This document shows, in pieces, positions 179-36,633 of a stretch of 52,527 nt of DNA. The DNA is from Candidatus Omnitrophota bacterium (GTDB lineage Bacteria; Omnitrophota; Gorgyraeia; Aquiviventales; Aquiviventaceae), in contig JACPRA010000038.1 of assembly GCA_016190215.1 (NCBI GenBank), forward strand, positions 1 to 52,527, in the 5' to 3' direction. The notes under the pieces are model-generated. The model saw only the letters and a program-made list of their open reading frames with translations. It searched no databases and had not been told where the DNA came from. The position numbers and the translations under genes are program-made. The stretch's first letter is position 1, and each line of letters begins with the position of its first letter.

Positions 179-793
179 TCATGCGGGATACTCGGCGCGG
201 CCGATGACCAGGTCCACCAGCGCGAGCAGCCACAACTGGTGCAGTGTCTCGACCAAATTGTAGGCGGAACTGTCCGCCCAAAAGTTCACGTCTCCCAGCC
301 GCCGCAGCGGGTTATCCGGCGCAAACCCGGAGAGCGTGACCACCGCCGCGAACGATGCGCGGCGGGCCGCCTCGCAGGCACGCAGCACGTTGGCGGATTT
401 TCCGCTGGAGGAAATGGCGATCAGCACGTCGCCCGCATCGCCGTAGAGCTCCACCGCCTGCTCCATCCACCGCTCATAGCCGTAATCGTTCGCCAGGCAG
501 GTGATCAAATCCGCCTCGTTGAAGTTGACGGCGCGGATGCGCGCGTTTTTCGTCAGGTCCACCGCCACGTGGCTGGCTATCGCCGCACTCCCGCCGTTGC
601 CCACGAGGACCACTTTCTTCCCGTCCCGCGAGGCAGCACTCACCAGCTCCTTGACTCGCACCAGGTCCGGGATCCAAGCGGCGGAGTCGCGCAGCATCGC
701 CTGAAACTGCTCCAGGTAGCGCGCGAGAAATTCGCCGTCGCGGATGTCCGCCGGCTCACGCGCCACGCGCGGCTCAGGCGGCGTGGATGTCAT
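179..793 (-). CDS. SIS-domain phosphoheptose isomerase (GmhA-like)
   Basis: VVLVGNGGSAAIASHVAVDLTKN and ISSSGKSANVLRA motifs of sedoheptulose-7-phosphate isomerases. Confidence 0.85.
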   Translation of the reverse strand: MTSTPPEPRVAREPADIRDGEFLARYLEQFQAMLRDSAAWIPDLVRVKELVSAASRDGKKVVLVGNGGSAAIASHVAVDLTKNARIRAVNFNEADLITCLANDYGYERWMEQAVELYGDAGDVLIAISSSGKSANVLRACEAARRASFAAVVTLSGFAPDNPLRRLGDVNFWADSSAYNLVETLHQLWLLALVDLVIGRAEYPA

Positions 794-2652
794 CCGGCGG
801 CTCCCACCGGTTGCGGAGCGGCCGGCTGCTCGGACCCGCCCGACCCTTCGGCATATAGCCGCGCGTATAGCCCGCCGCGCTGCACCAGCTCCTCGTGCCG
901 CCCCTGCTCCTGGATCCGCCCGTCCTCCAGCACCAGGATGCGATGCGCATCCTTCACCGTGCTGAGCCGGTGCGCGATCACGATGACGATCGCGTCTTCA
1001 TGCAGGCTGTGGATCGCCTGGTACACCGCGCGCTCGGTCAGGGTGTCGAGGGCGCTGGTGGCTTCATCAAAGATCAACACCTGCGGCCGGCGCAGGATGG
1101 CGCGCGCGATCGCCAGCCGCTGGCATTGCCCGCCGGAGAGCCGCAGCCCCCGGTCTCCCACCACGGTGTCATAGCCCTCGGGCAGCGACACGATGAAGTC
1201 GTGGAGCTGCGCGATGCCGGTCGCCCATTCCAGCCGCCCCGGCTCGATGCCCTCCTGGCCCAGCAGCAGGTTGTCGCGGATGGTCGCGTTGAACACGAAC
1301 ACGTCCTGCGACACCGAGCCGATGCCGCCGCGCCACGCCGCCAAATCCAGCCGCTGTAAGTCCACATTGTTCACCGTGATCGTGCCGGCCTGCGGGTCCG
1401 CCAGCCCCAACAGCAGGTGCGCGATGGTGCTCTTGCCGGAGCCGGTCGGCCCGACGATCGCCGTCACGGTGCCGCGCGCCATCGCCGCGCTGACGCCGCG
1501 CAGCACGCCATGCTCCGGCCGGCTCGGATAGGCGAACGCCACGTCGCGCAATTCGATGCGCTCCACGCGCCCCACGCTGGCACCGCCGCGGCGCTCCTGG
1601 GGCAGTTCGCGCAGCACTTCGTCAATCACTTCCAGGTTGCGCGCGTACTTGTGCATCTCGACGCTGGCCCGGTTGATCGTCGCCAGCGACGGAGCGATCC
1701 GCCGGATGGCCAGGAGGAACGCCGCCAGCATGGACACGCGGAAGCCCCAGCCGGGCCGAAAACACGTGACCGCCCCCAGCGCCAGGACGATCGCCACCGC
1801 GATCACCTCGTTGACCAGCATCGGGCCGTTGCGATAGCCCACCAGCCGCAGCTCCGGGACCAGCTCCTTGGCGAGCAGCGCATCCTGCCGCGCCACCAGC
1901 GCCGCCTCCAGCCCGTGCGCCTTGACCACCCGCAGCCCGTCAATGGCATCCACTTGCAGCTTGCTCTGCTCGGAGCGCACGTCATAGAGCGTGCGGCCGT
2001 GCGCCGCCGCGCGCCGGTCGGCATACCAGCGCCAGCCCTGCACGCCGGCGACCGCCAGCAGGCCGATCACCAGCGTGGCCCACCATGAGAGATACAGCAA
2101 CAGCCCGATCATAAGCGCGCTGGTGACGATCCCGGTCAGGAACAACCCCAACTGCGTGATCGCGCCGGCCAGCGATTCCCCGGGCGCATTGATGTCGTTG
2201 ACCACCGCGCCGCGCGAGCGCCGCGCCATCGCGTCGTACCGGGCGTGCAGGAACCGGTCCAGCATCAGCGTCTTGACGCTCCGGCGCAGCTTCACCGCGA
2301 TGGCCGCCGTGTAATACTGGCCGAGCAGCACCGAGACGCCGTGCGCCACAAACAGCACCGAAGAGACGGCCAGCACGCTGAAGATGAGCGCCGGCAATGT
2401 CGCCGGCCATCCGGCGGCTTGCACGACCCCGGCCATGGCGCGCACCACCCCGTTGCCCATGGCCCGGTCCGGCAGGGTCAGCAGGTCCAACAGCGGCACG
2501 GTCAAGCCGATGGTCAGCGTTTCCAGCAGCGCCCCGCCCGCCATGAGCAGCAGGATGGCCAAGGTGGGCTTCGGGTACGGGCGCACCGCCACCCGCCAAT
2601 AGAAATCCCAGGTATTGGCCGGCCGCTCCAGGGCTGCGGACTCCATCGTCAT
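790..2652 (-). CDS. ABC transporter, fused permease/ATP-binding protein (MsbA/heterologous lipid-flippase type)
   Basis: TM N-terminal half; Walker A GPTGSGKST, signature LSGGQCQRLAIARA, Walker B VLIFDEATSALD. Confidence 0.92.
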   Translation of the reverse strand: MTMESAALERPANTWDFYWRVAVRPYPKPTLAILLLMAGGALLETLTIGLTVPLLDLLTLPDRAMGNGVVRAMAGVVQAAGWPATLPALIFSVLAVSSVLFVAHGVSVLLGQYYTAAIAVKLRRSVKTLMLDRFLHARYDAMARRSRGAVVNDINAPGESLAGAITQLGLFLTGIVTSALMIGLLLYLSWWATLVIGLLAVAGVQGWRWYADRRAAAHGRTLYDVRSEQSKLQVDAIDGLRVVKAHGLEAALVARQDALLAKELVPELRLVGYRNGPMLVNEVIAVAIVLALGAVTCFRPGWGFRVSMLAAFLLAIRRIAPSLATINRASVEMHKYARNLEVIDEVLRELPQERRGGASVGRVERIELRDVAFAYPSRPEHGVLRGVSAAMARGTVTAIVGPTGSGKSTIAHLLLGLADPQAGTITVNNVDLQRLDLAAWRGGIGSVSQDVFVFNATIRDNLLLGQEGIEPGRLEWATGIAQLHDFIVSLPEGYDTVVGDRGLRLSGGQCQRLAIARAILRRPQVLIFDEATSALDTLTERAVYQAIHSLHEDAIVIVIAHRLSTVKDAHRILVLEDGRIQEQGRHEELVQRGGLYARLYAEGSGGSEQPAAPQPVGAAG

Positions 2653-3683
2653 GGCGCCACCAGGTGTTCGGTTGGGGCCGGCGCCGCGGCCGGCGTCTCC
2701 TGCGGCTCGTAGAAAATGATGCGGCTGCCGTCGTGCTCGAAGCGGAAGGGCACGTGCAGCAGCCCGTCCAGCGCCTCGCGCACCCGGGCCTGCTCCTCCG
2801 GCCGCACGAACAGCAGGAGGAACCCGCCGCCGCCGGCACCCAGCAGCTTGCCCCCGATGGCGCCGGAGCGCCGGGCGGCATCGTAGCAGTCGTCAATGTG
2901 CGGGGTGGAAATCTTCTCCGTCAGGCTCTTCTTCACCTGCCAGCTCTCGTGCAGCAGCCGGCCGAACTCCTCCAGGCCGCCCCCGCCCTGCAGCACCCGG
3001 ATGCCCTCGTCCACCATCTGGTGCATCGCCCGCAGCTCCTGGGTCTTGGCGGGTGTCACGCGCACCTGCTGCTCCGCGATCTCCGAGGCCGTCCTCGACA
3101 ACCCGGTGAAGAACAGCATGAGATGGTCCTGAAACGCGGCCAGCCGCGCGGCGTCCACGATCACCGGCGAGACCCGGAACGTGTCGCGGCTGGCAAACTC
3201 GATGCGGTTAAGCCCGCCGTAGGCGGTGACCACCTGGTCCTGGCAGCCGACGTGCTCTTTGAGCAGCTCCTGCTCCACGTGGATCGCCTCGCGCGCCAAT
3301 TGCGGCTTGCTGGGCATCTGCCCTTTCAAGCCGTAGAGCGCGTGCAGCAGCCCGACGGTGAACGAGGAGCTGGAGCCCAGCCCGGTGCGCGCCGGCAAGT
3401 CGCCCACGTGGTGCACTTCCACGCCCTGCCCGATGCGCAGGAATTTCAGCGTGGCCCGCACCGAGGGGTGCTGGATCGCGTCGTGGTCGGTCACCTGCTC
3501 GATGCGTGACCAGACAATGCGGCTGGTGTGCCCGAAGAACGGCGGCAGCCACCGGCAGGAGAGGTAGCAGTACTTGTTGATGGTGGTGGCCAGCACCGCC
3601 CCGCCGTGCTCGCGGTACCACACGGGGTAGTCGGTCCCCCCGCCGAAGAACGAGACGCGGAACGGCGTGCGGCTGATGATCAT
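2649..3683 (-). CDS. GHMP kinase, D-glycero-D-manno-heptose 7-phosphate kinase-like (HddA type)
   Basis: MIISRTPFRVSFFGGGTDYPVWYREHGG...PARTGLGSSSSFTVGLLHAL; start placed at 3683, not at 3773, because the longer N-terminus is repeat-encoded. Confidence 0.88.
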   Translation of the reverse strand: MIISRTPFRVSFFGGGTDYPVWYREHGGAVLATTINKYCYLSCRWLPPFFGHTSRIVWSRIEQVTDHDAIQHPSVRATLKFLRIGQGVEVHHVGDLPARTGLGSSSSFTVGLLHALYGLKGQMPSKPQLAREAIHVEQELLKEHVGCQDQVVTAYGGLNRIEFASRDTFRVSPVIVDAARLAAFQDHLMLFFTGLSRTASEIAEQQVRVTPAKTQELRAMHQMVDEGIRVLQGGGGLEEFGRLLHESWQVKKSLTEKISTPHIDDCYDAARRSGAIGGKLLGAGGGGFLLLFVRPEEQARVREALDGLLHVPFRFEHDGSRIIFYEPQETPAAAPAPTEHLVAP

Positions 3684-3700
3684 ACTGCGCCACCACCATT

Positions 3701-3820
3701 TGAAGCACACAGCACACAGTAAACCGGCACACAGCACACAGCACACAGCACACAGCCAACAATCCACAGGCATTTCATGACGGCGCTTCCTCTGTCTGCT
3801 GTCTGCTGTGTGCTGTCTGC
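3701..3820. repeat. Heptad-repeat element, copy 2: CACACAG units (3707-3756) + conserved core (3765-3813, inverted relative to copy 1) + CTGTSTG units
   Basis: Reverse complement of 3765-3813 matches 99-147 at 47 of 49 positions by direct comparison. Confidence 0.88.
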
Positions 3821-5337
3821 AAGGAAGGCTCTGCGGCGTATTGCCGCTTGAGTTTATGTGCTGCCATGTCCTTGATGTGCGCCGCGGTCGCCGCGCCGAA
3901 CTTCCGCTCCACCATCTCCAAGTACCGGGGGGCGCGGAAATAGGTTTGGAACGCCTCGTCCCGGAACCGCAGCACCTCGCCCGCCGTCAGGTGCTTCGTG
4001 GGCAGCGGCAGGGTGTCCTCCGCGTGCTGCGAGTAGCCGGCCCAGGACGAGGGCAGCGCCCAGCCCTGCGCCAGCGCGTCGCGGTAGAGCGGCGAGCCGG
4101 GGTACGCCATCGTCGAGTAAAAGTTCGCGAACTCGCAGTTGAGCTCCAGGGCCATGTCCAGCGTCTCCTGCATGGTCCGCAGGTCGTCTTCCGGCAGGCC
4201 GAAGATGTAATTGCCGATGATGTGGATGCCGGCCTCGCGGACTTTCGTGATCGTGCGGTAGACGTCGTCCTGGTCGAAGCCCTTCTGCACGTCCTGGCGC
4301 ACCCGCGCGTTGGCCGCCTCGATGCCGAAGGCCAGCCAGTTGACGCCGGCGCGCTTGAGCTTGTCGAGCATCCCGTCGCGCACCGTGTCCACGCGCGCGT
4401 AGGCCCAGATGTTGAGGTCGTAGCCGCGCTCGATGATCCCGTCGCAGATGCCCAGCACGTGCTTGGGGTGCAGCACGAACATTTCATCCGCGATCTTCAC
4501 GTTGCGCACCCCGTAGCGCTCGACGAGCAACCCGAGCTGGTTCACGACGTGCTCCACGCTCCAGAAGCGGTAGCTGTTCACGCCGGATTTATAGCCCAGC
4601 ACCCCCTCGCCGCTTTTGAAGGGCGCCTGGATGCAGCAGAAGCTGCAGTGGTACGGACAGCCCAGCGTCGTGTAGACGGCGGCATACGGCTGGCGCTTCA
4701 GGCCGTCAAGGGTATGCCAATTGTGCGCGCGGTACTTTCCCATCGGCAGAAGGTCCCACGCGATCATCGGCATCTCGCCGTTCAAATCCTGGAGCAGCGG
4801 AGCCGGCTCGGTGGAGCGGATCGCGCCGTCCTCCCGGTACCACAGCCCGCGCACGCGATTCAGCGCGGGCGAGGAGGACTTCAGCGCCTCCAGCAGCTCG
4901 GCCATCGTGTAGAGCCCTTCGCCGCCGGCGACGAAATCCACGTCCTCTTCCTCCAGCGTGCGCTCGGGGAGTGCGGCCACATGGCCGCCCACCATCAGCA
5001 CCTTGGCCTCGGGCCAGCGCCGCTTGACGGCGGTGCAGATCGCCCCGGCCGCGGTCATGTTCTGCGTGGAGGCCGAGGGTTGGTGGCCGTAGACCACGAC
5101 GGCGACCAGGCGGGGCCGCATCGCTTCGATCCGTTTCGCGGCGTCCTCGGCGCTTAAGCTGTCCGCTTCGGTGTCGAGGATCGCCACCCCGTAGCCTTTG
5201 CGGCTCAGGAAGGCGGCCATCAGCCCGGCCCATACCGGCGGCTCGATCGCGGAGAGCGACTCCCCCAGCGATTGGTACGTCCGCAGCCGGTCTCCCGGAT
5301 TCACCAGCACGATATCCAGTGGTCTGTTTGACATCAC
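3775..5337 (-). CDS. B12-binding-domain radical SAM protein
   Basis: N-terminal cobalamin-binding-like domain; radical SAM motif GCPYHCSFCCIQAPF; C-terminal tail SLQTAHSRQQTEEAPS encoded by heptad repeat. Confidence 0.88.
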   Translation of the reverse strand: MMSNRPLDIVLVNPGDRLRTYQSLGESLSAIEPPVWAGLMAAFLSRKGYGVAILDTEADSLSAEDAAKRIEAMRPRLVAVVVYGHQPSASTQNMTAAGAICTAVKRRWPEAKVLMVGGHVAALPERTLEEEDVDFVAGGEGLYTMAELLEALKSSSPALNRVRGLWYREDGAIRSTEPAPLLQDLNGEMPMIAWDLLPMGKYRAHNWHTLDGLKRQPYAAVYTTLGCPYHCSFCCIQAPFKSGEGVLGYKSGVNSYRFWSVEHVVNQLGLLVERYGVRNVKIADEMFVLHPKHVLGICDGIIERGYDLNIWAYARVDTVRDGMLDKLKRAGVNWLAFGIEAANARVRQDVQKGFDQDDVYRTITKVREAGIHIIGNYIFGLPEDDLRTMQETLDMALELNCEFANFYSTMAYPGSPLYRDALAQGWALPSSWAGYSQHAEDTLPLPTKHLTAGEVLRFRDEAFQTYFRAPRYLEMVERKFGAATAAHIKDMAAHKLKRQYAAEPSLQTAHSRQQTEEAPS

Positions 5338-5358
5338 TCTTCTGTCTCCTGGTGGGTG

Positions 5359-6291
5359 CTAGACATTGGCATACCCTGACCGGCGGATGACCTGGTACCC
5401 CTTGATCAACTCGGCGATGCCCGCCTGCAACGACACGGCCGGCTTGAACCCGGTGCGTTCGATCTTGGCGTTGCTGACGATGTAGTTGCGCTGGTCCGGG
5501 TCCTGGCCGATCTCCGCCTCCGCGATGGAGAACTTGGGCCACTGTTTCTTGATCTCGTCGCACAATTCCCGCTTGGACAGGTTGGCGTCGCTCAACCCCA
5601 CGTTGTACGGCTGGCCCTGCATCGCCTCGAAATGGGCCAGGCCGTGCAGGAACGCCCGCGCCACGTCCCGCACATGGATGTAGTTGCGCTTGAAGTGCGC
5701 TTGGAACAGCACGATGAAGCCGTCCGTCACCGCGCGGTACACGAAATCGTTGACCAGCAGGTCCAGCCGCATCCGCGGGCTCACGCCGAAGGCGGTCGCC
5801 AGGCGGAACGTCAGGCTGTTGCCTGCCTCGAGGACGCGCTGCTCCGCGTCCACTTTCAGGCGGCCGTACAGGGAGATGGGCTTCAGCGGGGTCTCCTCGG
5901 TGCAGTGGATGCCCTCCTGCCCCACGCCGTAGCCGCTGTTCGTCGTCGGGAACAGCACCCGCTGCGAGCGGCTGCGCAGCTCCAGCACCAGCTGGACCGC
6001 CTCCAGGTTCACGCTGCGCGCCTCCTGCGGGTGCCGGTCGCACAACGGGGCGCCGGTCAAGCAGGCCAGCGGCAGGATGATGTCCGCCGTCTTCAGGCAG
6101 CGCTCCACCAGCGCGCGGTCCCGCGCGTCGCCGCGCACGATGGTCAGCTTCGGGTCATGGCAGCAGTCCAGTAGCGAGTTTTGCTGGTAGAGAAAGGCGT
6201 CCAGCACCGTGACCTCATGCCCGGCCGCCAGGAACGCCGGCACGATGACGGAGCCGAGATAGCCGGCCCCGCCCGTTATGAAGATACGCAT
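5359..6291 (-). CDS. NAD-dependent epimerase/dehydratase
   Basis: MRIFITGGAGYLGSVIVPAFL (GxxGxxG); TTNSGYG and YGRLK region. Confidence 0.88.
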   Translation of the reverse strand: MRIFITGGAGYLGSVIVPAFLAAGHEVTVLDAFLYQQNSLLDCCHDPKLTIVRGDARDRALVERCLKTADIILPLACLTGAPLCDRHPQEARSVNLEAVQLVLELRSRSQRVLFPTTNSGYGVGQEGIHCTEETPLKPISLYGRLKVDAEQRVLEAGNSLTFRLATAFGVSPRMRLDLLVNDFVYRAVTDGFIVLFQAHFKRNYIHVRDVARAFLHGLAHFEAMQGQPYNVGLSDANLSKRELCDEIKKQWPKFSIAEAEIGQDPDQRNYIVSNAKIERTGFKPAVSLQAGIAELIKGYQVIRRSGYANV

Positions 6292-7235
6292 GCCACCTCC
6301 GATGATCGCCGTGCCTGATGCTCACGAAACCACGCATACGTCCGCTCGATCCCCTCGCGCAGCTCCGTGCGGGGCGCCCAGCCCAGCGCCCGGATCGCCG
6401 AGGAGTCCAGCCGCTTGTCCGGCGCGCCGTCCGGCCGCGACGCATCCCAGCCGATCCCGCCCTCATATCCCACCACCCCGCGGATCAGCTCCGCCAGCTC
6501 GCGGATGGTCTGCGACGTTCCGGAGCCGACATTGATCGGCTCCGCGCCCTCTGCCCGGCTCAACAACGTCTCGCAGGCCGAGGCCATATCGTCCACGTGC
6601 AAAAACTCCCGCCGCGCGTTGCCGCTGCCCCACAGCGTCACGGACGGCCGGCGCGCGGCCTTTGCCTCATGGAACTTGGCGATCAGCGCCGAGAGGACGT
6701 GCGCATCGGGCCCCTCGAAATGGTCGCCGGGCCCGTATAGCGTGCATGGAATCGCGCTGATGAACCGCGTGCCGTATTGCCGGTTGTACGCGGCGCACAG
6801 CGACAGCCCGGCCAGCTTCGCCATGGCATACGGCTCGCTCGTCGGCTCCACCGGCCCGGTCATGAGCTGCTCCGGCCGCATCGGCTGCGGGCACGCTGTC
6901 GGATACATGCAGCCGCTGCCGAAATTCAGCAGGCGCGCGACCCCGGCTTTCCAGGCGCCGTGAATGAGGTTCGCTTCGATCATCAGGTTGTCGTGGATGA
7001 ACTGCGCCGGCTGCGCCTGGTTCGCGGCAATGCCCCCGACCCGGCCGGCCGCCAGGATGACCGTGTCCGGCCGCGCCGCCGCGAGAAACCGCTCCACCGC
7101 GCGCGCGTCGGTCAGGTCCAGCTCCTGCCGGGTCGCCGTCACAAGCCGCAGATCCGGCCGGCCCTCCCAGGCCCGCAGCAGCGCCTGTCCCAGCAGCCCG
7201 GTGTGTCCGGCGATGTAGCGCGCCTCGATGGGCAT
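6276..7235 (-). CDS. GDP-L-fucose synthase-like NAD-dependent epimerase/reductase
   Basis: Start at MPIEARYIAGHTGLLGQALLRAW; NFGSGCMYPTACPQPMRPEQLMTGPVEPTSEPYAMAKLAGL typical of WcaG/Fcl family. Confidence 0.88.
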   Translation of the reverse strand: MPIEARYIAGHTGLLGQALLRAWEGRPDLRLVTATRQELDLTDARAVERFLAAARPDTVILAAGRVGGIAANQAQPAQFIHDNLMIEANLIHGAWKAGVARLLNFGSGCMYPTACPQPMRPEQLMTGPVEPTSEPYAMAKLAGLSLCAAYNRQYGTRFISAIPCTLYGPGDHFEGPDAHVLSALIAKFHEAKAARRPSVTLWGSGNARREFLHVDDMASACETLLSRAEGAEPINVGSGTSQTIRELAELIRGVVGYEGGIGWDASRPDGAPDKRLDSSAIRALGWAPRTELREGIERTYAWFREHQARRSSEVACVSS

Positions 7236-8205: not shown

Positions 8206-9246
8206 TCAAAACGGCCCCTTGAACCGCTGCTCGTAGCTGTAAAACGATTCGCCGCTCAGGTCGGTCGGCTCCAGGTCCAGCAGCCGCTCCACGCTGCGGA
8301 TGATGCTCACCGCCGAGGGATAAAAGAGGTTCTCCAGCGGCCGCGTCGTCGGGCACGGCACGTGCGCAAACCCCAGCCGCTCCACCGGCGCCTTCAGGGC
8401 CCCGAAACACCGCGCATGCAACTGCGCGGCCAGCTCCGCGCTGAAGCCGCAGAACGTCCAGTCGTAGTCGGCCACGACGCACCGCCCGGTCTTGGCGACC
8501 GAGGCCGCGATGGGCTCGATGCCCAGCGGGGCGATGCTGCGCGCATCCACCACCTCCAGCTCGATCCCCCGCTTGGCCAGCACCTCGGCCGCTTTCAACG
8601 CTTCAATCGTCATCCAGGAGGTGGCGACCACCGTGGCGTCGCGCCCGATCCGGCGCACCGCCGGCTCGCCCAAGGGCACCTGCAGCCGCTCATCCACCTC
8701 GCCTGGCACGTCATACAGCCAGCGGTGCTCCAAGACCAGCACCGGGTTGTCCTCGCGGATCGCCGTGCGCAGCAGGCTGTAGGCATCCTGCGCGGTGGTC
8801 GGCATCACCACCTTCAGTCCGGGAATATGGCCGAAGACGCCGTGCAACGATTTGCTGTGCTGCGCGGACTGCCCCCAGCCCCGCCCGATGATCGCGCGGA
8901 TCACCAGGGGCACCTGGAGCCGGCCGCCGGTCATGTAGCGCAGGTTGGAGACCATGTTGACGATCTGGTTCATCGCCAAGAGCGTGAAGTCGGCGCGGAT
9001 GTGCACGTGGATCGGCCGCAGCCCGGACAACGCGGCCCCGAGCGCGACCCCGGTCATCGCCTCTTCGGAGAGCGGCGTGCCGAAGCAGCGCGACGCCCCG
9101 AAGCGCTCCACGAGGCCCTGCGTGCTGCCGAAGATGCGCTTGTGGTCCGGCACGTCCAGCCCGAAGACGAAGACGTTCGGGTCCGCGGCCATCTCCTCTT
9201 CCATGGCCCAGGTCAGGGCCCGCCGGTAGGTCACGAGCCGGCTCAT
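8206..9246 (-). CDS. TPP-dependent dehydrogenase/transketolase-like E1 beta subunit
   Basis: MSRLVTYRRALTWAMEEEMAADPNVFVFGLDV...FGTPLSEEAMTGVALGAALSGLRPIHVHIRADF; C-terminal transketolase_C-like. Confidence 0.88.
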   Translation of the reverse strand: MSRLVTYRRALTWAMEEEMAADPNVFVFGLDVPDHKRIFGSTQGLVERFGASRCFGTPLSEEAMTGVALGAALSGLRPIHVHIRADFTLLAMNQIVNMVSNLRYMTGGRLQVPLVIRAIIGRGWGQSAQHSKSLHGVFGHIPGLKVVMPTTAQDAYSLLRTAIREDNPVLVLEHRWLYDVPGEVDERLQVPLGEPAVRRIGRDATVVATSWMTIEALKAAEVLAKRGIELEVVDARSIAPLGIEPIAASVAKTGRCVVADYDWTFCGFSAELAAQLHARCFGALKAPVERLGFAHVPCPTTRPLENLFYPSAVSIIRSVERLLDLEPTDLSGESFYSYEQRFKGPF

Positions 9247-10262
9247 GCGCGCGGCTCCCCGCCCGCGAAGACGTCGCGCAAGAGTTCCTCCGGCGGCGGA
9301 AACGGCGCGGCTTGCGCCGCGGCGATGCTGCGGGAAATCTTGGCCTCCACCGCCTCGGCCGCCGCCTTCAGCGCCTCCGGGGGGCAGCCCTGCTCCCGCA
9401 ACGCGCGCTCGACACGGCGCAGCGGATCCAGGCGCTCGCGCGTGTCCGCGTCGGGGGCGCTGCGATAGCCCGCGTCGAAGTCCTCGCGGTTGCCCACGTG
9501 CTCGAGAAACCGGAAATAGGTCAGGTGCAGCAAGCCCGGGCCGGGGTCCTGGGCCATCGCGCTGAGGACCGAGCGCGTGAGGGCCTGCACCTCGGTCACG
9601 TCGCTGCCGTCGCCGCTGGCGACGTGGCACGTGAAGCCGTTCACCGCTTCGGGGATGGAGCGGAAGCCTTGGCGCTGCGCCGTCGCCGTGTGGATCGCCA
9701 GCCCGTTGTCCTCGCACACGAACAGGACGCGCAGCCGGTGGAGGCAGGCGAAGTTCAGGCTTTCCCAGAAGACGCCTTCTTCCACGGCGCCGTCGCCGAA
9801 GAACACGGCCGTCAACCCGCCGGTGTTTCGATACGATTCGGCGAAGGCCGCGCCCACCGCCACCGGGATCGTGCTGGCCACGACCGCCGAGGTGGCCACC
9901 AAGCCGTGCGCGGGCGACGCCAGGTGCATCGAACCGGCCTTGCCCTTCCCGGCCCCGGTGATTTTGCCGTACAGTTCGCCGAAAAACCCGTCGGTGTCTC
10001 CGCCCGTGACCGTCAAATAGAGCGCGTGGTTGCGGTAGGTGCCGAAGGTCTTGGCCCCGGGCGGCAGGCAGGAGCACACGCCCACCGGAATCGCTTCTTC
10101 GCCGATCCCCAGGTGCACCGGCGTTTTCATCTCATCGTGGTGATATTCCGCGCAAATGGCCTCTTCAGCGCGCCGGATCAGCAGCATCCTGGAGTACAGC
10201 TCGAGCGCTTCCGTCAGGTCCGGCGTCCGGCGGGCCGGCTGCACCGCGCTGGGCAGGGTCAT
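9243..10262 (-). CDS. TPP-dependent dehydrogenase E1 alpha subunit
   Basis: LIRRAEEAICAEYHHDEMKTPVHLGIGEEAIPVG; TPP motif FFGDGAVEEGVFWESLNFA. Confidence 0.9.
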   Translation of the reverse strand: MTLPSAVQPARRTPDLTEALELYSRMLLIRRAEEAICAEYHHDEMKTPVHLGIGEEAIPVGVCSCLPPGAKTFGTYRNHALYLTVTGGDTDGFFGELYGKITGAGKGKAGSMHLASPAHGLVATSAVVASTIPVAVGAAFAESYRNTGGLTAVFFGDGAVEEGVFWESLNFACLHRLRVLFVCEDNGLAIHTATAQRQGFRSIPEAVNGFTCHVASGDGSDVTEVQALTRSVLSAMAQDPGPGLLHLTYFRFLEHVGNREDFDAGYRSAPDADTRERLDPLRRVERALREQGCPPEALKAAAEAVEAKISRSIAAAQAAPFPPPEELLRDVFAGGEPRA

Positions 10263-16772: not shown

Positions 16773-17930
16773 TTATGCGCCTCGGAAATGCGACTGGACG
16801 GCCTGGGCGATGAAGTCCAGATCGTCCTCGGTCAAGTATTGGTGCACGCCGAAATGCAGGCCGGTCCGCCCGATCCGCTCCGCCACCGGGAATTGCCCGA
16901 GCCGGTGTCCCAGGAAACTGAAGACCCGGTGCTGGGTAGGCAGCGAGCCGAAGAGCGTCTTGCACTGGATGCCCTGCGCTTCCAGGTGCCGGTACAGGGG
17001 CTCCATCGAGGCGTTCGGGTCGCGCAGCACCAGCGGCACCGCGTGCGGGCAGATGACCTCCCCCGGCCCGTCGCGGTAGAGAAGCAGCCGGTCCTCGAAG
17101 GGTGCCAGCAATTCCCACAGGCGCGTCAAATACCGGCGCCGGGTGGTGAATGTCTGCTCGAACTGCTCCAGCCCTTCCAGGCCGATGGCGGCTTCCAGGT
17201 CGTTCATTTTGGAGTTGTAGCCCACGCGGTCGAAGTGGAAGTAGAGCTGCCCGCCCCGCCGCCCGTGGCTGCGGATCGAGCGGCACAGATCCGCCAGCTC
17301 GCCGTCCTGCGTCACGATCATGCCGCCTTCCCCGCTGCAAATCATGTGGGCCGCGTAAAAGCTGAACATCCCCAGCGACCCGAATGAGCCGACCACCCGC
17401 CCGCGGAGCGTCGCGCCGTGCGCCTCGCAGGCGTCTTCCAGCACCATCAGCTTGTGCCGCCGGGCAATCTCCGTGATCCGGTCCATCGCGCACGGCTTGC
17501 CCATCGTGTGCACCACCTGGATCGCGCGCGTGCGCGGCGTGATCGCCGCCTCGATCAGCTCCGGGTTGATGTTGAGCGTCTCCAGCTCCACGTCCACGAA
17601 GGTCGGCGTCAGTCCGGCGGCGACGATGCAGTTGGCGGACGCGACGAACGACAGCGCCGGGGTGATGACCTCATCCCCGCGCGCGGCGCCGCGGTCCAGC
17701 AGCGTTGACATCGCCACCAACCCCGCGTCCGTGCCGGAGCTGACGGCCACGGCATGGCGGTAGCCGAACTGCTGCGCAAACCGGCGCTCCAATTCCTGCA
17801 CGTTCGGCCCCTCGGACACCCAGTTGCGGTTCAGCGTCTCGTCAATCCGCCGCCGCCCGGCCGGGCCGATCTCGATGTGGCCGAACGTCACCCGGAACGC
17901 GCTTCGCGCCGACGCTGTCTCTGTGGGCAT
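16773..17930 (-). CDS. DegT/DnrJ/EryC1 family aminotransferase (RfbH-like)
   Basis: SEGPNVQELERRFAQQFGYRHAVAVSSGTDAGL; EDACEAHGATLRGRVVGSFGSLGMFSFYAAHMICSGEGGMIVT. Confidence 0.9.
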   Translation of the reverse strand: MPTETASARSAFRVTFGHIEIGPAGRRRIDETLNRNWVSEGPNVQELERRFAQQFGYRHAVAVSSGTDAGLVAMSTLLDRGAARGDEVITPALSFVASANCIVAAGLTPTFVDVELETLNINPELIEAAITPRTRAIQVVHTMGKPCAMDRITEIARRHKLMVLEDACEAHGATLRGRVVGSFGSLGMFSFYAAHMICSGEGGMIVTQDGELADLCRSIRSHGRRGGQLYFHFDRVGYNSKMNDLEAAIGLEGLEQFEQTFTTRRRYLTRLWELLAPFEDRLLLYRDGPGEVICPHAVPLVLRDPNASMEPLYRHLEAQGIQCKTLFGSLPTQHRVFSFLGHRLGQFPVAERIGRTGLHFGVHQYLTEDDLDFIAQAVQSHFRGA

Positions 17931-17953
17931 GGCTCCTCCTGCGAGTGGCATCG

Positions 17954-19390
17954 TTAGCGGCTCTCGACGTGCGCGAGCGGCTCCGCCTGGGCGCCCAGGG
18001 TGCGGGCCGCCTCGGCGTAGCATTCCGGCGTGCCGATGTCCAGCAGCCGCGCCTCGGAGCAGAACACGCGGGCGCGCCGGTGGCTGAGCAACGTCTGCAA
18101 ATTCGCTTCCAGGCTGTAGGCCCCCATGGGCCAGGACAGCACCAGCTCCCGGCTCAACACGTAGAGGCCGGCGTTCACCCAGCCGTCCGGCACCTCGGCC
18201 TGGGTGCGGAACCCCCGCACCTCGCCTTGCGGCCCCACGTCCCACACGCCTTTGTTGAGCGCGCGCCCTTCCACGTGGGAAGCGCGCACCGCCACGAGGG
18301 TGCCTTCCCGCGCTTCCCGGCTGTGCTGCTGCAGCACCGGCAGGATCGGCTGGGTCACCCACGTATCGCCGTTGAGCGCGACGAACGTGCCGGAGCGCAC
18401 CCGTTCCGCCGCGTAGCGCAGCGCCCCGCCGGTGCCCAACGGCTCCGGCTCCACGACCAGCTCAAGGTTCGGGATCGCGGCGGCTGCATCGGCGATGAAG
18501 GCTTGGAATTGCTCGGAGAGGTACTGGGTGGCCAAGATGAACCGGCTGAAGCCTTCCTGCTGCAGGCGGCGAAGCAGGTGCAGCAGGAAGGGGCTTTCCC
18601 CGACGGGCAAGAGCGGCTTGGGCGTGGCGGTCGTCAGCGTGCCCAGCCGCGTGCCACGCCCGCCGCACAAGATGATCACGTCGGTGGCCTCAGGGGCCGG
18701 CGCCGAGAGGCCCGGCGAGTCGGAGGCGGCACGGGCGGAGGCGGCCTCGCAGATCGGCGCCACCTGCACGACGGCCGGCCTGGGAAAACTGATGATGCGC
18801 TCCGGCGGCACCCCGGCCTCTTGCAAGCGCCTGACCACCGCCTCCTGGCCCGGCAGGGCGGAGACGACGATCTGGTCATACGCGAGCGAGTGGATGGCGT
18901 CCAGGGACAGCACCGGATAGCCGAAGAACCATGCGCTCGACGGCGAAAGCTCGGTCACCCCGGCGATCTCCAAGCCGAGCTCGCGCACCGTCAACAGCGC
19001 GATCTCGGCCATTTCATCCGTGCCGCACAATAAGACGGTGCGCGAGCCGGATTTGGCCAGGGCCGACAACCGCTGGCGGAGGAAGCGGCGCACGCCGCTG
19101 TAGAGCGTCAGCGAATGCTGGATGAATTCGTAGGTGAGGCGGGTTTTCTCGAGCAAGCCTTTGGGGGTGATGAGGTAGCGGATCCGGCTGCGCTTGGTGC
19201 CGGTGATTTTGATGTAGCCTTTCTTCGCCAGCCGGCGCAGCATCAGGTTGGTCAGCCCCAGCGCCGCGCCGATTTGGACGGAGAGGTCGCGCTGGGTCAC
19301 ATCGGGACGCTGCTCGAGGGCGTCGAGCAGATGCATGTCCCGGTACGCGCTGGGTTTGAGCTGGGGTGAGCTCTCACTGGCCCGGGGCAT
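17954..19390 (-). CDS. Three-domain fusion: winged-helix (MarR/EPS-associated type) + Rossmann-like domain + sugar-1-phosphate nucleotidyltransferase
   Basis: N-term DVTQRDLSVQIGAALGLTNLMLRRLAKKGYIKITGTKRSRIRYLITPKGLLEK (wHTH); middle RTVLLCGTDEMAEIALLTVRELGLEIAGVTE; C-term DVIILCGGRGTRLGTLTTATPKPLLPVGESPFL; one continuous 478-aa ORF. Confidence 0.87.
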   Translation of the reverse strand: MPRASESSPQLKPSAYRDMHLLDALEQRPDVTQRDLSVQIGAALGLTNLMLRRLAKKGYIKITGTKRSRIRYLITPKGLLEKTRLTYEFIQHSLTLYSGVRRFLRQRLSALAKSGSRTVLLCGTDEMAEIALLTVRELGLEIAGVTELSPSSAWFFGYPVLSLDAIHSLAYDQIVVSALPGQEAVVRRLQEAGVPPERIISFPRPAVVQVAPICEAASARAASDSPGLSAPAPEATDVIILCGGRGTRLGTLTTATPKPLLPVGESPFLLHLLRRLQQEGFSRFILATQYLSEQFQAFIADAAAAIPNLELVVEPEPLGTGGALRYAAERVRSGTFVALNGDTWVTQPILPVLQQHSREAREGTLVAVRASHVEGRALNKGVWDVGPQGEVRGFRTQAEVPDGWVNAGLYVLSRELVLSWPMGAYSLEANLQTLLSHRRARVFCSEARLLDIGTPECYAEAARTLGAQAEPLAHVESR

Positions 19391-19420
19391 ACGATCCCAT
19401 CAGCGTGCGCACCCTCAATT

Positions 19421-19435
19421 GTTCACAGTATGAAC
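19421..19435. promoter_or_regulatory. Operator-like palindrome GTTCA-cagta-TGAAC
   Basis: Perfect 5-bp half sites, 5-bp spacer, in the intergenic region upstream of the wHTH fusion gene. Confidence 0.6.
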
Positions 19436-19485
19436 GCAACACGTGAGTTACACCCCTGGAGTTCCGCTCAATGCTGGTGGAATTT

Positions 19486-19512
19486 GAAGATGTTCAAGTG
19501 GTGAACATCTTC
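19486..19512. promoter_or_regulatory. Operator-like palindrome GAAGATGTTCA-agtgg-TGAACATCTTC (same GTTCA-N5-TGAAC core)
   Basis: 11-bp perfect inverted repeat with 5-nt spacer; minus-strand TTGACA at 19535-19530 lies 17 bp upstream of GAAGAT at the palindrome edge. Confidence 0.65.
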
Positions 19513-19531
19513 CCTGAATTCGCCTGTCCTG

Positions 19532-21301
19532 TCAACGAAAAACGCGGGGACGCAGCAGGCGCACCAGGCCGGCGGAGGCGATGAGGATGAGGTAGGGTTC
19601 GAGCGGAGCGCGGTGCCGGTAGGCTGATTCCAGAAGGAGGTGCACCACGAGCCGCGACGCCACCACGGTGATGATGAGCCACCATCCCAGACGCGCCTGC
19701 GGACGGCGCAGCATCTCCCGGCCCATCACCACCAGGCCCGCCAGCGCCGCGCCGTACGCATACGCCCACAACCCGGCGGAATAGACGCTGCGCCGCACCA
19801 GGAACAACAGGTCGAACGATCCATAGCCCTGGTCCAGCAGCATCGCCGAGGCGTTGGCCGCCATCGCCTTCACAATCCGGCCGATGACCAGGACGGGGTG
19901 CGTCTGGAGCAGCTCCCAGGCCGCCGCCGGGTCGCGCCAGGGGTTCCACCAAAACTTCAGGTGCGGCGTCGTGTACGGGTAGGCAAACCACTGGTCATTG
20001 ATGCGCGCGTGAATCCCCGACCCGGCGCCGTGCACGAACGGAAACAACACCAGCAGGAACCCGCACGACAGCAGCGCGGCGTGCCGGAGCGCGGTGCGCC
20101 ACCCCACGATCAGCCGCATCCCCAGCACGATCCACAGCACCGCCGCGCCCCAGAAGGCAATGTTCCCTTCCCGCGTGGCGGCCGCCCACCCGAGCAGCAT
20201 CCCGATGCCCAGCATCCACCGGCCCACGCGCCGGGGCGACTCGGCGTAGCGCACCAGCGCCCACACCACCAGCAGCGTCCAGAACAGATCCAGCGCCTGA
20301 TGGCCGATGGCCGCCGCGGAGAACACCAGCAAAAAGTTGAGCGCGGCGAACGCCGCCGCCACCCGGGCCGTGGTCTCGTTGAACAACCGCCGGGCCACGT
20401 CGTAGAGCACCAGGCAGGCCGCCGCGCCGAGGAGCGATTGGATCGCGCAGACCGCGACATAATTCCGCCCGAGGAGCCAATAGACCAGCGCCAAAAACCG
20501 CACGTAGCCGGGCGCGAACAGCGGCAAGCTGCCCAGGGATGTCGAGCCTTCCCCGCTGACGAGTTGCCACGCGATGGCGTCATAAATCGGTCCATCCGAG
20601 CCGGTGTTGAGGAAATCCGGGCTGGAAAGGATGCGCGCCGCATAGAACAGCCGCAGCCCCAATGCCGCCAGGAAGATCGTGATGAGAAAGACTGCGGGGC
20701 GCCGCCACCATGCCGCCGCGCGGCCGGCAAGATCGCGCCGCAAGGATGAGGGAACCACGCGGCTTAGCCCGACGCCGGCCATCGCCGCGCCGATGGCGAA
20801 TCCGGGCGCGGCCAGGATGGACACGACCCACAATCCGAGGAACGCCACGGCCGGCGGCGCCCACTCCAATGAACAAACCCCGCCATCACGAACCCGTCGC
20901 CGGCAGGAGGCGATCCAGCCCTCCAGGCCGATCGTCCCGCCCACCAGCGCCACAGCCCAGACCAGCTGCCAATACCGGACATACCAGGCCGACAGGCCCG
21001 GCGGCAGGTGCCGCGTCAGCGACCAGGAGAGATGGGCCAGCAGGATGCACCAATGCGCGCCGAAGATGATGCCCAGCCGGCGCGGCCGCGGCACCGGCTC
21101 CGCGCCCGGCTGCCGGGCGATCCAGGCGAGATAGCTCCACAGGCTCATCCACGACAGGATCGGAAGGGGAAACACCCGCCCCTGAACCAGTAGGGGGATC
21201 TTCAGCGCGCCGCCGTCCCACCACCACACCTCAGCGAACATGACGGCGCAGACGATCAGAGCGAGGAAGGCCGCAGCGAGCACGCGCAGACGGGAACTCA
21301 T
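19532..21301 (-). CDS. Polytopic membrane glycosyltransferase (GT39/ArnT/PMT-like)
   Basis: 589 aa, many TM helices; DGPIYDAIAWQLVSGEG and ALNFLLVFSAAAIGHQALDLFWTLLVVWALVRYAES. Confidence 0.75.
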   Translation of the reverse strand: MSSRLRVLAAAFLALIVCAVMFAEVWWWDGGALKIPLLVQGRVFPLPILSWMSLWSYLAWIARQPGAEPVPRPRRLGIIFGAHWCILLAHLSWSLTRHLPPGLSAWYVRYWQLVWAVALVGGTIGLEGWIASCRRRVRDGGVCSLEWAPPAVAFLGLWVVSILAAPGFAIGAAMAGVGLSRVVPSSLRRDLAGRAAAWWRRPAVFLITIFLAALGLRLFYAARILSSPDFLNTGSDGPIYDAIAWQLVSGEGSTSLGSLPLFAPGYVRFLALVYWLLGRNYVAVCAIQSLLGAAACLVLYDVARRLFNETTARVAAAFAALNFLLVFSAAAIGHQALDLFWTLLVVWALVRYAESPRRVGRWMLGIGMLLGWAAATREGNIAFWGAAVLWIVLGMRLIVGWRTALRHAALLSCGFLLVLFPFVHGAGSGIHARINDQWFAYPYTTPHLKFWWNPWRDPAAAWELLQTHPVLVIGRIVKAMAANASAMLLDQGYGSFDLLFLVRRSVYSAGLWAYAYGAALAGLVVMGREMLRRPQARLGWWLIITVVASRLVVHLLLESAYRHRAPLEPYLILIASAGLVRLLRPRVFR

Positions 21302-32507: not shown

Positions 32508-33221
32508 TCAACGCGAGGCGCGAATGCCGGCCTTGCCGCGCGGCGCGGCCGCGGCCGACGCTTTCCATTGCTTGGCTTCCGGCGGCAGGCGCTCCCAATC
32601 CGAGAGAAACCGCTCCAACCCGGCATCCGTCAGCGGATGCTTGACCAGCATTTCCAGCACGGCAAACGGCATCGTCGCGATGTCCGCCCCGATCTTGGCC
32701 GCCTCCGCGACGTGGATCGGGTGCCGCACGCTGGCCACCAGAATCTGCGTGGCGAACCGGTAGTTGGCATAGATGGTCTTGATGTCTTGGATGAGCAGCA
32801 TGCCGTCCTGGCTCAAGTCATCCAGCCGGCCGACGAACGGTGAGACGAAATAGGCCCCGGCCTTGGCCGCCAGCAGCGCCTGGTTGGGCGAGAAGCACAG
32901 CGTCACATTCACCCGGATGCCCTCGTGCGAGAGCTGCCGCGTGGCTTTCAGCCCTTCCTTGGTGAGCGGGCATTTCACGACGATGTGCTGATGCAGGGCG
33001 GCAAACGCCCGGCCTTCCTCGATCATGCCGGCGGCGTCCCGGCTGACGGTTTCCATGCTCACCGGGCCGTTCACCCGCTCGCAGATCTCCTTCATCAGCG
33101 GCACAAATTCCCGCCCCTCTTTCGCGACGAGCGTCGGGTTGGTCGTCACGCCGTCAATCGCGCCCCAGCTCACCGCTTCATCAATCTCTTTGAGATTCGC
33201 CGAATCCAAGAACAGCTTCAT
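32508..33221 (-). CDS. Transaldolase / fructose-6-phosphate aldolase family
   Basis: [65 protein letters not shown]. Confidence 0.95.
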
Positions 33222-34189
33222 GCATGCCCTCCGCGATCTTCCTCAAGCAAATAGGTCGCCCCCACCACGCCGGCTCGCACTCCCAACTGCCCCCGCACGA
33301 TACGGGCGGTCCGGGCCGGCAGCGAAAAAGCTGACCGACGAACAGTCGCGCGTAATGCAGGCGAAAACCAGGGCCACGCATTCCCCACCCCGCCGCCGAT
33401 CACCACACACTCCGGATTCAAGAGGTTCACCAGGTTGGCCACACCGATGCCAAGCCATTCACCCACTCCAGCCCAAATGCGCCGTGCTGCAGCATCGCCG
33501 CGCGCGGCGGCTGTGCTGATCACGGCAGGCGTCAGCTCGCCGGCCTCCTCCACGCACGCGCGCAGCGTCCGATGCCCCCACCGCATCGCGGCGCGGGCCT
33601 GCCGCAGGATGGCGGCAGTGCTGACGAGTGATTCTAAACATCCACGCCGGCCGCAGCCGCATCGCGGTCCACCCGGCAGGAGCACCATATGGCCCGGCTC
33701 TCCGGCCGAGCCGGTGGCTCCGCGCACCAAATGGCCGTGGCTGATGATGCCGCCCCCAACGCCGGTGCCCAACGTCAAATAGACGCCGTGCGAGGTGCCC
33801 CGGCCCGCGCCCGCGCGCCACTCGCCCAGCGCCACGACGTTCGCGTCATTGTCAATCACGCAGCGGCACCCCAGGCGGCGCGCCATCAACTGCGCGAACG
33901 GCACGCCCTGCCATCGCCCCGGCAAGTTCACGAGCTGGTGCACGATCCCGCGGGAGCCGTCCACCAACCCCGGCAATCCGATGCCCACGCCCCGGCAGGA
34001 CCGGCGCGGCAACCCGTGGATCCCGCGAAGCTCCTCGATCGTCCGGCTCAATCCCTCCGCAAGCTTCGACGGGCTGGCATAGGACCGCGTCGGCAAGATC
34101 CGGTGCGCGAGCACCCGGCGGCCCTGGGCGGATACTACCCCCATCTTAATCTGTGTGCCGCCCACGTCAACCCCAACCATCCAGACCAT
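33218..34189 (-). CDS. ROK-family sugar kinase (glucokinase-like)
   Basis: [38 protein letters not shown]. Confidence 0.93.
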
Positions 34190-34210: not shown

Positions 34211-35377
34211 CTATGGACAGCGATAACACGTTCGGATATTTCCCTTCACTAGACCACATTTGTAATCAGCTTGGGTCCATCCCGCCGGGCAGAGGGCGGG
34301 AATGATGCCGCTACATCCGTTGCCTCCGTACAAGACCATGACCTGACAGACCGTATCGGTCCGGTAGCACGTTCGGACGTTTCCCTCTTCCACGCCGCAT
34401 GCGTAATTCGCTTGGGTCCATTCCGCCGGGCAGGGGGCGGGAATGTTGCCGCTACATCCGCCGCCCCCGTACAGCAGCATCACCGAATCGCCTCCAGAAC
34501 CGGACGAAGCGGCCTGCCAACTCGCCAGCCCGCTGGCATCCGAGGTGAGGACTTTGTTCGCCCCCGGGCTGCCGCCGGTGATCTTGATCCGACCGGCGAT
34601 CTCCAGCCTGGCTCCGGGATTCGCCACCCCGATGCCGACATCGCCGGTTGGTGTGATCGTCAGGCGTTCAATTCCTGAACCCGTATAATTATCACTGGTG
34701 ACAAAGAATAACCCGCCGCCGACCGCCGTGTTGATTCGCGAGCCGATTTTCGAAACCGTCCGGCCTGTATTATCCATAAAGACGATATCCGCGTACGAAA
34801 AACCTGGGGCCGTGCCATCCGTGGTGGTTTGAATCGCCACGCCCCCATTGGCCGCGCCCGGCCCCGTCCCGGCCGATCTCACCTGCAGCGCATTCACCGG
34901 ACCAACCGTCCCGATGCCGACATTGCCGGTGTTGGTATTGGAGATGTTATTGCCCGTGGCGGTCCAGTACGTGCTGAATGGCTGGCCGTTCCTACGGTAC
35001 TCGGCGGCATTCACGACCCCGTTGATGTTCAGGGCGTAGCTGGCCGGATCTGCCGTCCCAATGCCGACTTGCCCCTCGCTGTTGATCACGAAGGGTGCGG
35101 CAACTCCACCGGGGGTCTCCGCCAAGAAGGTCGGATGAAAGTTGTCGCCGATCACGTAGAGCCGAGGCGGGAGGGCCAACGGGGTCGTCGTGCCGATGGT
35201 GACGTCCCCGCTGGTTCGGAGTTCCTGGTACACCCCTCGCGGTGAAGGATAGTAGGTCGTCAGGATGAGATCTTCGGCGAGGGCATAGACAACGACACCC
35301 GCCAACAATCCCCCCGCCACTCCATATGGAACCCACCGATGGTTTCGGACCGATGTTCTCATGAAGGCCTTTTCCAC
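34211..35377 (-). CDS. Putative surface/tail-fibre-like protein with VGIG(T/V)xxP repeats and duplicated Cys-rich C-terminal module
   Basis: N-terminal TM segment; repeats VTIGTTTP, VGIGTADP, VGIGTVGP, VGIGVANP; two ~45-aa Cys-rich copies at C-terminus. Confidence 0.7.
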   Translation of the reverse strand: MEKAFMRTSVRNHRWVPYGVAGGLLAGVVVYALAEDLILTTYYPSPRGVYQELRTSGDVTIGTTTPLALPPRLYVIGDNFHPTFLAETPGGVAAPFVINSEGQVGIGTADPASYALNINGVVNAAEYRRNGQPFSTYWTATGNNISNTNTGNVGIGTVGPVNALQVRSAGTGPGAANGGVAIQTTTDGTAPGFSYADIVFMDNTGRTVSKIGSRINTAVGGGLFFVTSDNYTGSGIERLTITPTGDVGIGVANPGARLEIAGRIKITGGSPGANKVLTSDASGLASWQAASSGSGGDSVMLLYGGGGCSGNIPAPCPAEWTQANYACGVEEGNVRTCYRTDTVCQVMVLYGGNGCSGIIPALCPAGWTQADYKCGLVKGNIRTCYRCP

Positions 35378-36633
35378 TGAACGACGCGGTTGCGCCCGGC
35401 GCGTTTGGCGGCATAGAGGGCGGCATCCGCATGGGCGATCAGCTCCTGCAGCGTCGCGGCGTCGTCGGGAAAACAGGCCACGCCGATGCTGATCGTCTGC
35501 CGCAACACCTCATCATACGCACGGATCGAGTGCATTTCCACCACTTCGCGCAGCCGCTCCGCCGCCCCCATCGCCCGCGGCGGGCCGCTCTCGACCAGCA
35601 GGCAGATGAACTCCTCGCCGCCATAGCGGGCCACCAGGTCCATCCCGCGGATATTCTGCCGCAGGAGCTGCGCCGTCTCGCGCAGCACCACGTCGCCCAC
35701 GAGATGGCCGTACGTGTCGTTTTTCGCCTTGAAGTGGTCCAGATCCACCATGAGGATCGCGCACGGAAGCCGGTGGTGCGCGCAGCGGCGCAACTCCTCG
35801 GCGGCGAATTCGTTGAAATACCGGCGCACGAACAGCCCGGTCAGCGAGTCGGTGACCGCCAGGGATTCCACCGCTTCATAAAACAGCACGCGCGCCACCT
35901 GCAGGGCCAGCTGATTGGCCACGATGGCCAGCGTCTCCAGGCGGTCCGCCGGCAGGTCGTCCACGACCAGCATGCCGATCACGCCCTGCTCGGCCGACAG
36001 GGGCGCCCAGGCCACCGTCGCGATATCGGAGGGCGCCGCCTCGCCGAATTCCACGGCGGCGCTCTGCCCGACTGCGGGCGCCTGCGCGGCCCGCTCGAGC
36101 ACCGATCGCTCCCACGGTTGAAGCTCGCCATGGGACCCATCCGCCACCCGCCACGCCGTAGGCGCCCCACCGCCCGCCGGAGCAACGATGAGACGCGCCC
36201 GGCGCGTCTGCAGCAGAGGCGGCACGCATTCCGCCACCGCGGCCGCCAGGTCTTCCATCCGCAGCGCCCGGCCGGCTTCTTTCGTCACGTGGTACAGTTC
36301 GGTGATCCGGGCGATCTCGGATTCCACCTGTTGCGCCGCGCCTTCCAGCTCCCGCAGCGTCCGCGACCGCTGCTGCAGCCGCCCCAGCCGGGAGGCTTCC
36401 TTCGCCTGCAGCCGGTGGATCCGGCGCTCATGGCGCTCGCGCTGGGCCCACAGCAGCCATGGGCCCAGGCCGAGCATGATCCCTTCGAACGCGCCCGCCG
36501 GCGTCCACGCCCATGGGCCGGCGCCGGCCGCCCAGACCACCAGCGTCACGCCGGTCCACCCGCCGACCATGACGCGGTTCCAGCACGCCCCGGCCGCCAT
36601 CGCCAGGACCCAGCACAGCAGCGCCCAGCTCAT
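35359..36633 (-). CDS. Membrane-associated GGDEF diguanylate cyclase
   Basis: DSLTGLFVRRYFNEF...MVDLDHFKAKNDTYGHLVGDVVLRETAQLLRQ...ARYGGEEFICLL. Confidence 0.93.
   Translation of the reverse strand: MSWALLCWVLAMAAGACWNRVMVGGWTGVTLVVWAAGAGPWAWTPAGAFEGIMLGLGPWLLWAQRERHERRIHRLQAKEASRLGRLQQRSRTLRELEGAAQQVESEIARITELYHVTKEAGRALRMEDLAAAVAECVPPLLQTRRARLIVAPAGGGAPTAWRVADGSHGELQPWERSVLERAAQAPAVGQSAAVEFGEAAPSDIATVAWAPLSAEQGVIGMLVVDDLPADRLETLAIVANQLALQVARVLFYEAVESLAVTDSLTGLFVRRYFNEFAAEELRRCAHHRLPCAILMVDLDHFKAKNDTYGHLVGDVVLRETAQLLRQNIRGMDLVARYGGEEFICLLVESGPPRAMGAAERLREVVEMHSIRAYDEVLRQTISIGVACFPDDAATLQELIAHADAALYAAKRAGRNRVVQWKRPS

Follow-up and report, generated by a model that had tools for sequence, protein, structure and literature searches.

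Analysis of a 52,527-nucleotide stretch of DNA from a Candidatus Omnitrophota bacterium (contig JACPRA010000038.1; the whole stretch is referred to as the window) showed that a single gene encodes a winged helix-turn-helix (wHTH) regulator, a Rossmann-type domain and an HddC-type sugar nucleotidyltransferase, and that it is preceded by two copies of the palindrome GTTCA-N5-TGAAC, which recurs upstream of most relatives of the regulator. We lean towards reading the product as an autoregulator fused to a pathway enzyme, which would repress its own operon at the palindrome and supply GDP-heptose.

The fused gene ran from an ATG at 19390 to a stop codon at 17954 on the minus strand as an uninterrupted 478-aa frame, as the sequence-only reading had claimed. 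Domain assignment with Pfam, NCBIfam and an AlphaFold model (AF2; alignment of 43 sequences, mean pLDDT 87.9) gave wHTH, Rossmann-type and transferase domains in the following layout.

17954..19390, minus strand: fused gene, wHTH + Rossmann + HddC-type nucleotidyltransferase, 478 aa, with full-length homologues
19166..19354, minus strand: winged helix-turn-helix, residues 13-75 (HTH_24, TIGR04176 at 61 bits, AF2, Foldseek MarR matches of a stand-alone relative)
19052..19165, minus strand: long 38-residue helix, residues 76-113 (AF2 secondary structure)
18788..19039, minus strand: Rossmann-type domain, residues 118-201, alternating alpha/beta in AF2, with the conserved G-x-G/D-E-x-A/T-E-I/L (alignment, AF2, weak Rex and PglD_N similarity)
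18683..18787, minus strand: interdomain linker, residues 202-236, of which 206-224 are predicted to be disordered (AF2)
17987..18682, minus strand: HddC-type sugar-1-phosphate guanylyltransferase, residues 237-468 (Pfam, structure match, motifs)

In Pfam, residues 17-61 matched HTH_24 (E 2.5e-7) and residues 239-465 matched NTP_transferase (PF00483, E 1.3e-23), both over cut-off. Residues 19-102 matched the NCBIfam model TIGR04176 (MarR_EPS) with E 1e-16 and 60.9 bits, under the cut-off of 88, and the score in the genome search (64.5 bits) was also under 88. The MarR_EPS wHTH core, TQR-LS...LG-x-x-N...KKGYIK...Y-x-x-TP-G, was present in the alignment. These matches and the predicted wHTH fold agreed with the earlier claim of an EPS-associated MarR-like regulator. 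The long helix is probably the dimer interface, judging from the model. The C-terminal part matched NCBIfam models of mannose-1-phosphate guanylyltransferase and HddC.

Sequence and fold searches gave the Rossmann-type domain weak links only, to Rex, PglD_N and a Clostridium protein of unknown function, and no Rex or CoA_binding Pfam match was obtained in 38 relatives. The relatives carried G-x-G-E-x-A-E followed by VGVVDD, the window having GTDEMA in the first motif. This conserved pair suggests a nucleotide or nucleotide-sugar ligand.

A search for the same architecture covered the 99 nearest genomes and 384 from the class. Homologues spanning the whole protein, with no internal stop, were found in five Omnitrophota genomes: that of the window, G001 (58% identical to the window fusion), G098 (52%), G171 (49%) and G207 (54%). 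G001 belongs to the genus and family of the window, and G098, G171 and G207 represent three genera of another family. Because five genomes carry the same fusion, an assembly join or a frameshift was ruled out as the origin of the 478-aa ORF. In G074 and G011 the two parts were neighbouring genes whose stop and start codons overlap at TGATG. In G015 and G020 the transferase kept its place before the same DegT gene, but the regulator was some 20-26 kb further upstream on that contig. In addition to its fused gene, G207 had the regulator and the transferase as separate genes on another contig (C31, 9205-14904), on one strand and 4.3 kb apart. Stand-alone wHTH-Rossmann proteins of 200-240 aa were common in Omnitrophota and also occurred in Nitrospirota, Rokubacteria, a deltaproteobacterium and an alphaproteobacterial plasmid. 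Trees of the regulator and transferase parts were unresolved, and for the fused proteins the AU test gave no rejection (transferase p 0.49, regulator p 0.11); therefore, one or several fusion events are both possible.

The nearest solved structure to the transferase domain, by sequence and by fold, was HddC of Yersinia pseudotuberculosis (Foldseek E 1.7e-21; TM-score 0.89-0.90 over HddC). In the HddC structure (PMC6981941), guanine is held by Glu80 of the motif ExEPLGTGGA, which selects GTP; Lys24 and Lys157 bind the citrate found in the active site, and waters bound to magnesium are held by Asp210. The fused protein kept the motif as E314-P-E-PLGTGGA, with E314 as the GTP-selecting Glu, together with R248, the PKP lysine K258, D342 and D451, and the HddC signature GGxGTRL...PKP and the NGD and DIGTP metal/phosphate residues were present. 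The equivalent of Lys157 (EK motif) was absent in all seven aligned subfamily members, fused or free, and the same seven carried Lys380 instead of tyrosine at a nearby position. Against the HddC equivalog NF049965 the fused protein scored 93.1 bits, under the cut-off of 300. The description of the domain as a complete-looking nucleotidyltransferase thus stood for R248, K258, D342, D451 and ExEPLGTGGA and failed for Lys157; of the two nucleotides proposed earlier, GTP was favoured over CTP by the conserved GTP-selecting Glu motif. The fused protein is likely to have guanylyltransferase activity.

Three genes in the polysaccharide array around the fused gene bear on its substrate and product.

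16773..17951, minus strand: DegT/DnrJ aminotransferase, the next gene, with its start at ATG 17951 or 17930; it follows the transferase in the relatives checked
2649..3773, minus strand: HddA-like GHMP kinase (NF049969, 133.5 bits, under the cut-off of 600)
179..793, minus strand: GmhA-like SIS isomerase (TIGR00441, 81.7 bits, under the cut-off of 209)

The DegT ORF as listed (16773-18362) begins far inside the fused gene, ahead of either real start. The GmhA- and HddA-like enzymes would supply the substrate of the transferase. No GmhB phosphatase was found within the window; the contig comes to its end next to the GmhA-like gene. The gene order regulator-transferase-DegT was kept among relatives, and HddA-like, B12-radical SAM and transketolase-like genes accompanied it in G000, G001, G098 and G011. 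Because of the GmhA- and HddA-like genes in the array and this conserved order, GDP-heptose or a derived sugar is the likely product of the transferase. The heptose chemistry suggested by the sequence-only reading is thereby supported, HddC being the nearest structure as well, and so is the position given to the gene, as the first of a distal EPS block: one fused gene with its own predicted promoter heads the polysaccharide genes.

Several neighbours were observed in addition. The B12-binding radical SAM gene (window 3775-5337) and the transketolase-like gene (8206-10077) also accompany the heptose genes in G001, G098 and G011, and given these companions the final sugar may be unusual. A transaldolase/fructose-6-phosphate aldolase gene and a ROK sugar kinase gene (window 32508-34189) adjoin the array and could feed sedoheptulose-7-phosphate. 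Two overlapping ORFs of tandem diguanylate cyclases (GGDEF) lie upstream of the polysaccharide array (window 35359-38072). On a Loktanella salsilacus plasmid (L102) and a Sulfitobacter plasmid (L103), at about 5200-6300, MarR_EPS genes were divergent from adjoining RfaH/NusG-like antitermination genes, and these pairs stood at the head of polysaccharide clusters, an arrangement that suggests two layers of control.

The 141-bp gap upstream of the fused gene contained GTTCACAGTATGAAC at 19421-19435 (O2) and GTTCAAGTGGTGAAC at 19492-19506 (O1). The elements predicted there were as follows.

19530..19535, minus strand: -35 box TTGACA, which overlaps the upstream gene's stop codon
19507..19512, minus strand: -10-like hexamer GAAGAT, 17 bp after TTGACA and abutting O1; weak match to TATAAT
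19492..19506, no strand: candidate operator O1, GTTCA-N5-TGAAC, within an inverted repeat (19486-19512) with 11-bp arms; family-wide pattern
19421..19435, no strand: candidate operator O2, GTTCA-N5-TGAAC, in the predicted leader

A regulatory region had been predicted at 19391-19531, and the two candidate operators, not noticed in the sequence-only reading, and the predicted promoter fall there. In the 980-kb genome GTTCA-N5-TGAAC occurred three times, twice upstream of the fused gene, and a mirrored control pattern occurred 0 times. The third copy (34666-34680) lay within an ORF (34211-35377, minus strand) that had no Pfam match, and is probably due to chance; being at chance level, it was not counted, and a genome-wide regulon was rejected.

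The exact palindrome was present within 260 bp upstream of 38 of the 49 homologues (shuffled null 0.007) and, with one mismatch allowed, of 43 (shuffled null 0.32). All five fused genes had it. The rule covered fused, wHTH-Rossmann and short MarR_EPS proteins, with examples in Nitrospirota, Rokubacteria and Alphaproteobacteria. An independent set consisted of 24 MarR_EPS genes over the curated cut-off, drawn from the phylum via TIGR04176 and not used to discover the palindrome. A first scan, ending at the start of homology, gave 12/24; because palindromes overlap the presumed start codons, the scan was then lengthened 45 bases into the frame, and the exact palindrome was found at or just before the start in 23/24 (null 0.005). 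The palindrome extends over the presumed start codon in about half of these 24, where one half-site may therefore be partly constrained by coding; the other half-site lies upstream. About half of the short MarR_EPS genes (L113-L142) had GTTCA-ATG-AATGAAC over the presumed ATG; since the palindrome overlaps the ATG, repression may act at the translation start in such genes, or their mRNA may be nearly leaderless.

On alphaproteobacterial plasmids, one wHTH-Rossmann gene had GTTCA-N5-TGAAC and two of three MarR_EPS genes had exact GTTCA-N4-TGAAC. One Omnitrophota clade (L023, L027, L095 and L097) had the variant GTTCA-N5-AGAAC, 35 bp after TTGACA in 4/4. In the family alignment the spacer and outer flanks were free, save for a preference for T before the arms and A after them, as expected of a dimer that would touch two half-sites. 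The distance between two operators, considered for phasing with the helix, varied from 21 to 128 bp. The fused protein very probably binds GTTCA-N5-TGAAC as its operator.

The upstream regions were aligned on the palindrome and searched for TTGACA with at least 5/6 matches, 21-42 bp before it. Such a box was present in 35/43 homologues; counted by site, it was found at 36/56, against 7.1 in shuffles (largest 15). In many homologues the -10 position lies directly before the palindrome, as in TTGACA-N17-TATTGT-GTTCA of two Nitrospirota genes, and the window has the order TTGACA-N17-GAAGAT-[O1]. Transcription of the fused gene would start within O1. We infer this start from the layout, because GAAGAT is a poor match and a generic promoter scan did not report it. 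Lying over the predicted start, O1 has the place of a blocking repressor.

In the mechanism that we propose, a wHTH dimer, held by the long helix, would bind GTTCA-N5-TGAAC in its own promoter. Because O1 covers the predicted transcription start, the bound protein would block RNA polymerase and thereby repress the polysaccharide block headed by the fused gene. Such repression of its own operon is probable from the promoter layout. The C-terminal domain would convert GTP and the sugar-1-phosphate from the GmhA- and HddA-like enzymes to GDP-heptose or a close sugar, and the fusion would keep repressor and enzyme levels tied to each other. Most likely, DNA binding would be released or strengthened when a ligand occupies the Rossmann domain, the transferase or both. 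Some MarR proteins act as activators, and several of the genes have two operators with variable spacing, as might suit activation of the operon by the fused protein; however, the operator typically lies right after the -10 position and over the start site, which suits blocking, and we regard activation as unlikely. That the palindrome acts as an RNA hairpin (attenuator or terminator) rather than a DNA operator is highly improbable: the O1 inverted repeat is perfect with 11-bp arms, but the arms beyond the 5-bp core are not conserved, the spacer is free, and the position of the palindrome is tied to the promoter, where many copies would cover the transcription start. The terminator form was rejected for O1, which has no T run and gave an empty terminator scan.

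For a trigger enzyme, the analysis covered the joining of both functions in a single chain and the operator at the gene's own promoter; that the ligands of the enzyme would govern DNA binding is a tentative hypothesis. The fullest version, in which occupancy of a built-in GDP-heptose synthase sets the grip of a MarR-type repressor on its own polysaccharide promoter, would be a new trigger-enzyme combination and a late step of a family with one operator across several phyla; we put it forward as a possibility. The fusion may instead be mere convenience, the regulator answering its Rossmann ligand like its stand-alone relatives and the transferase being carried as a read-through passenger with no cross-talk. 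Stand-alone wHTH-Rossmann proteins with the same palindrome are indeed far commoner, the overlapping genes of G074 and G011 are one small indel from fusion, and the linker is predicted to be disordered. However, five genomes from two families retain the full-length fusion (49-58% identity), longer than is expected of a neutral accident, and this account is possible while falling short of probable. It is quite improbable that the transferase is a catalytically dead ligand sensor, as absence of the Lys157 equivalent might suggest, since the remaining active-site motifs are intact, that lysine is also missing from free-standing subfamily members adjoining the same DegT gene, and the genome, which is 79% complete, yielded no second HddC-like gene.

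Searches of an incomplete paper collection turned up no account of the operator, the wHTH-Rossmann family or the fusion, and gave one passing mention of MarR_EPS and no characterised member. The parts are of known kinds; the combination and the family-wide operator are apparently new. A candidate operator and a promoter layout are now assigned to the MarR_EPS family, which is annotated in many genomes, and a palindrome directly after a TTGACA promoter gives a rule for predicting targets in uncultured phyla. Since the palindrome recurs before nearly every regulator relative, the control switch is directly testable, and through the fusion one can examine directly how expression of surface-polysaccharide genes is matched to precursor supply.

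The fused protein shares with MarR_EPS (TIGR04176) the type of wHTH, the association with polysaccharide clusters and the palindrome in its own promoter, the last being a trait found in the present analysis and not part of the published family definition. MarR_EPS members, however, are about 105 aa and have no Rossmann or enzyme domain, and in Alphaproteobacteria their palindrome spacer can be 4 instead of the 5 at the fused gene. With HddC it shares the fold, the active-site motifs, ExEPLGTGGA and the company of GmhA- and HddA-like genes; it differs in carrying a regulator, in the replacement of Lys157 and in scoring 93 bits where the equivalog cut-off is 300. Rex likewise has a wHTH followed by a Rossmann domain, and the best Foldseek match of a stand-alone relative was 3wg9 (E 1.9e-5), but membership of Rex was rejected because the TM-score of that match was low (0.33) and there was no Rex Pfam match; the operator is also different and the classical GxGxxG is missing. 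The trigger enzymes NadR and BirA of E. coli likewise unite, in a single polypeptide, a DNA-binding domain with an enzyme of the pathway that they regulate, and NadR also contains a nucleotidyltransferase (PMC8249747). Their domains are unrelated to those of the fused protein and serve other pathways, and ligand control is established for them, whereas it is proposed here. If real, such control would make the fused protein comparable to NadR and BirA in how it works, though not in its ancestry.
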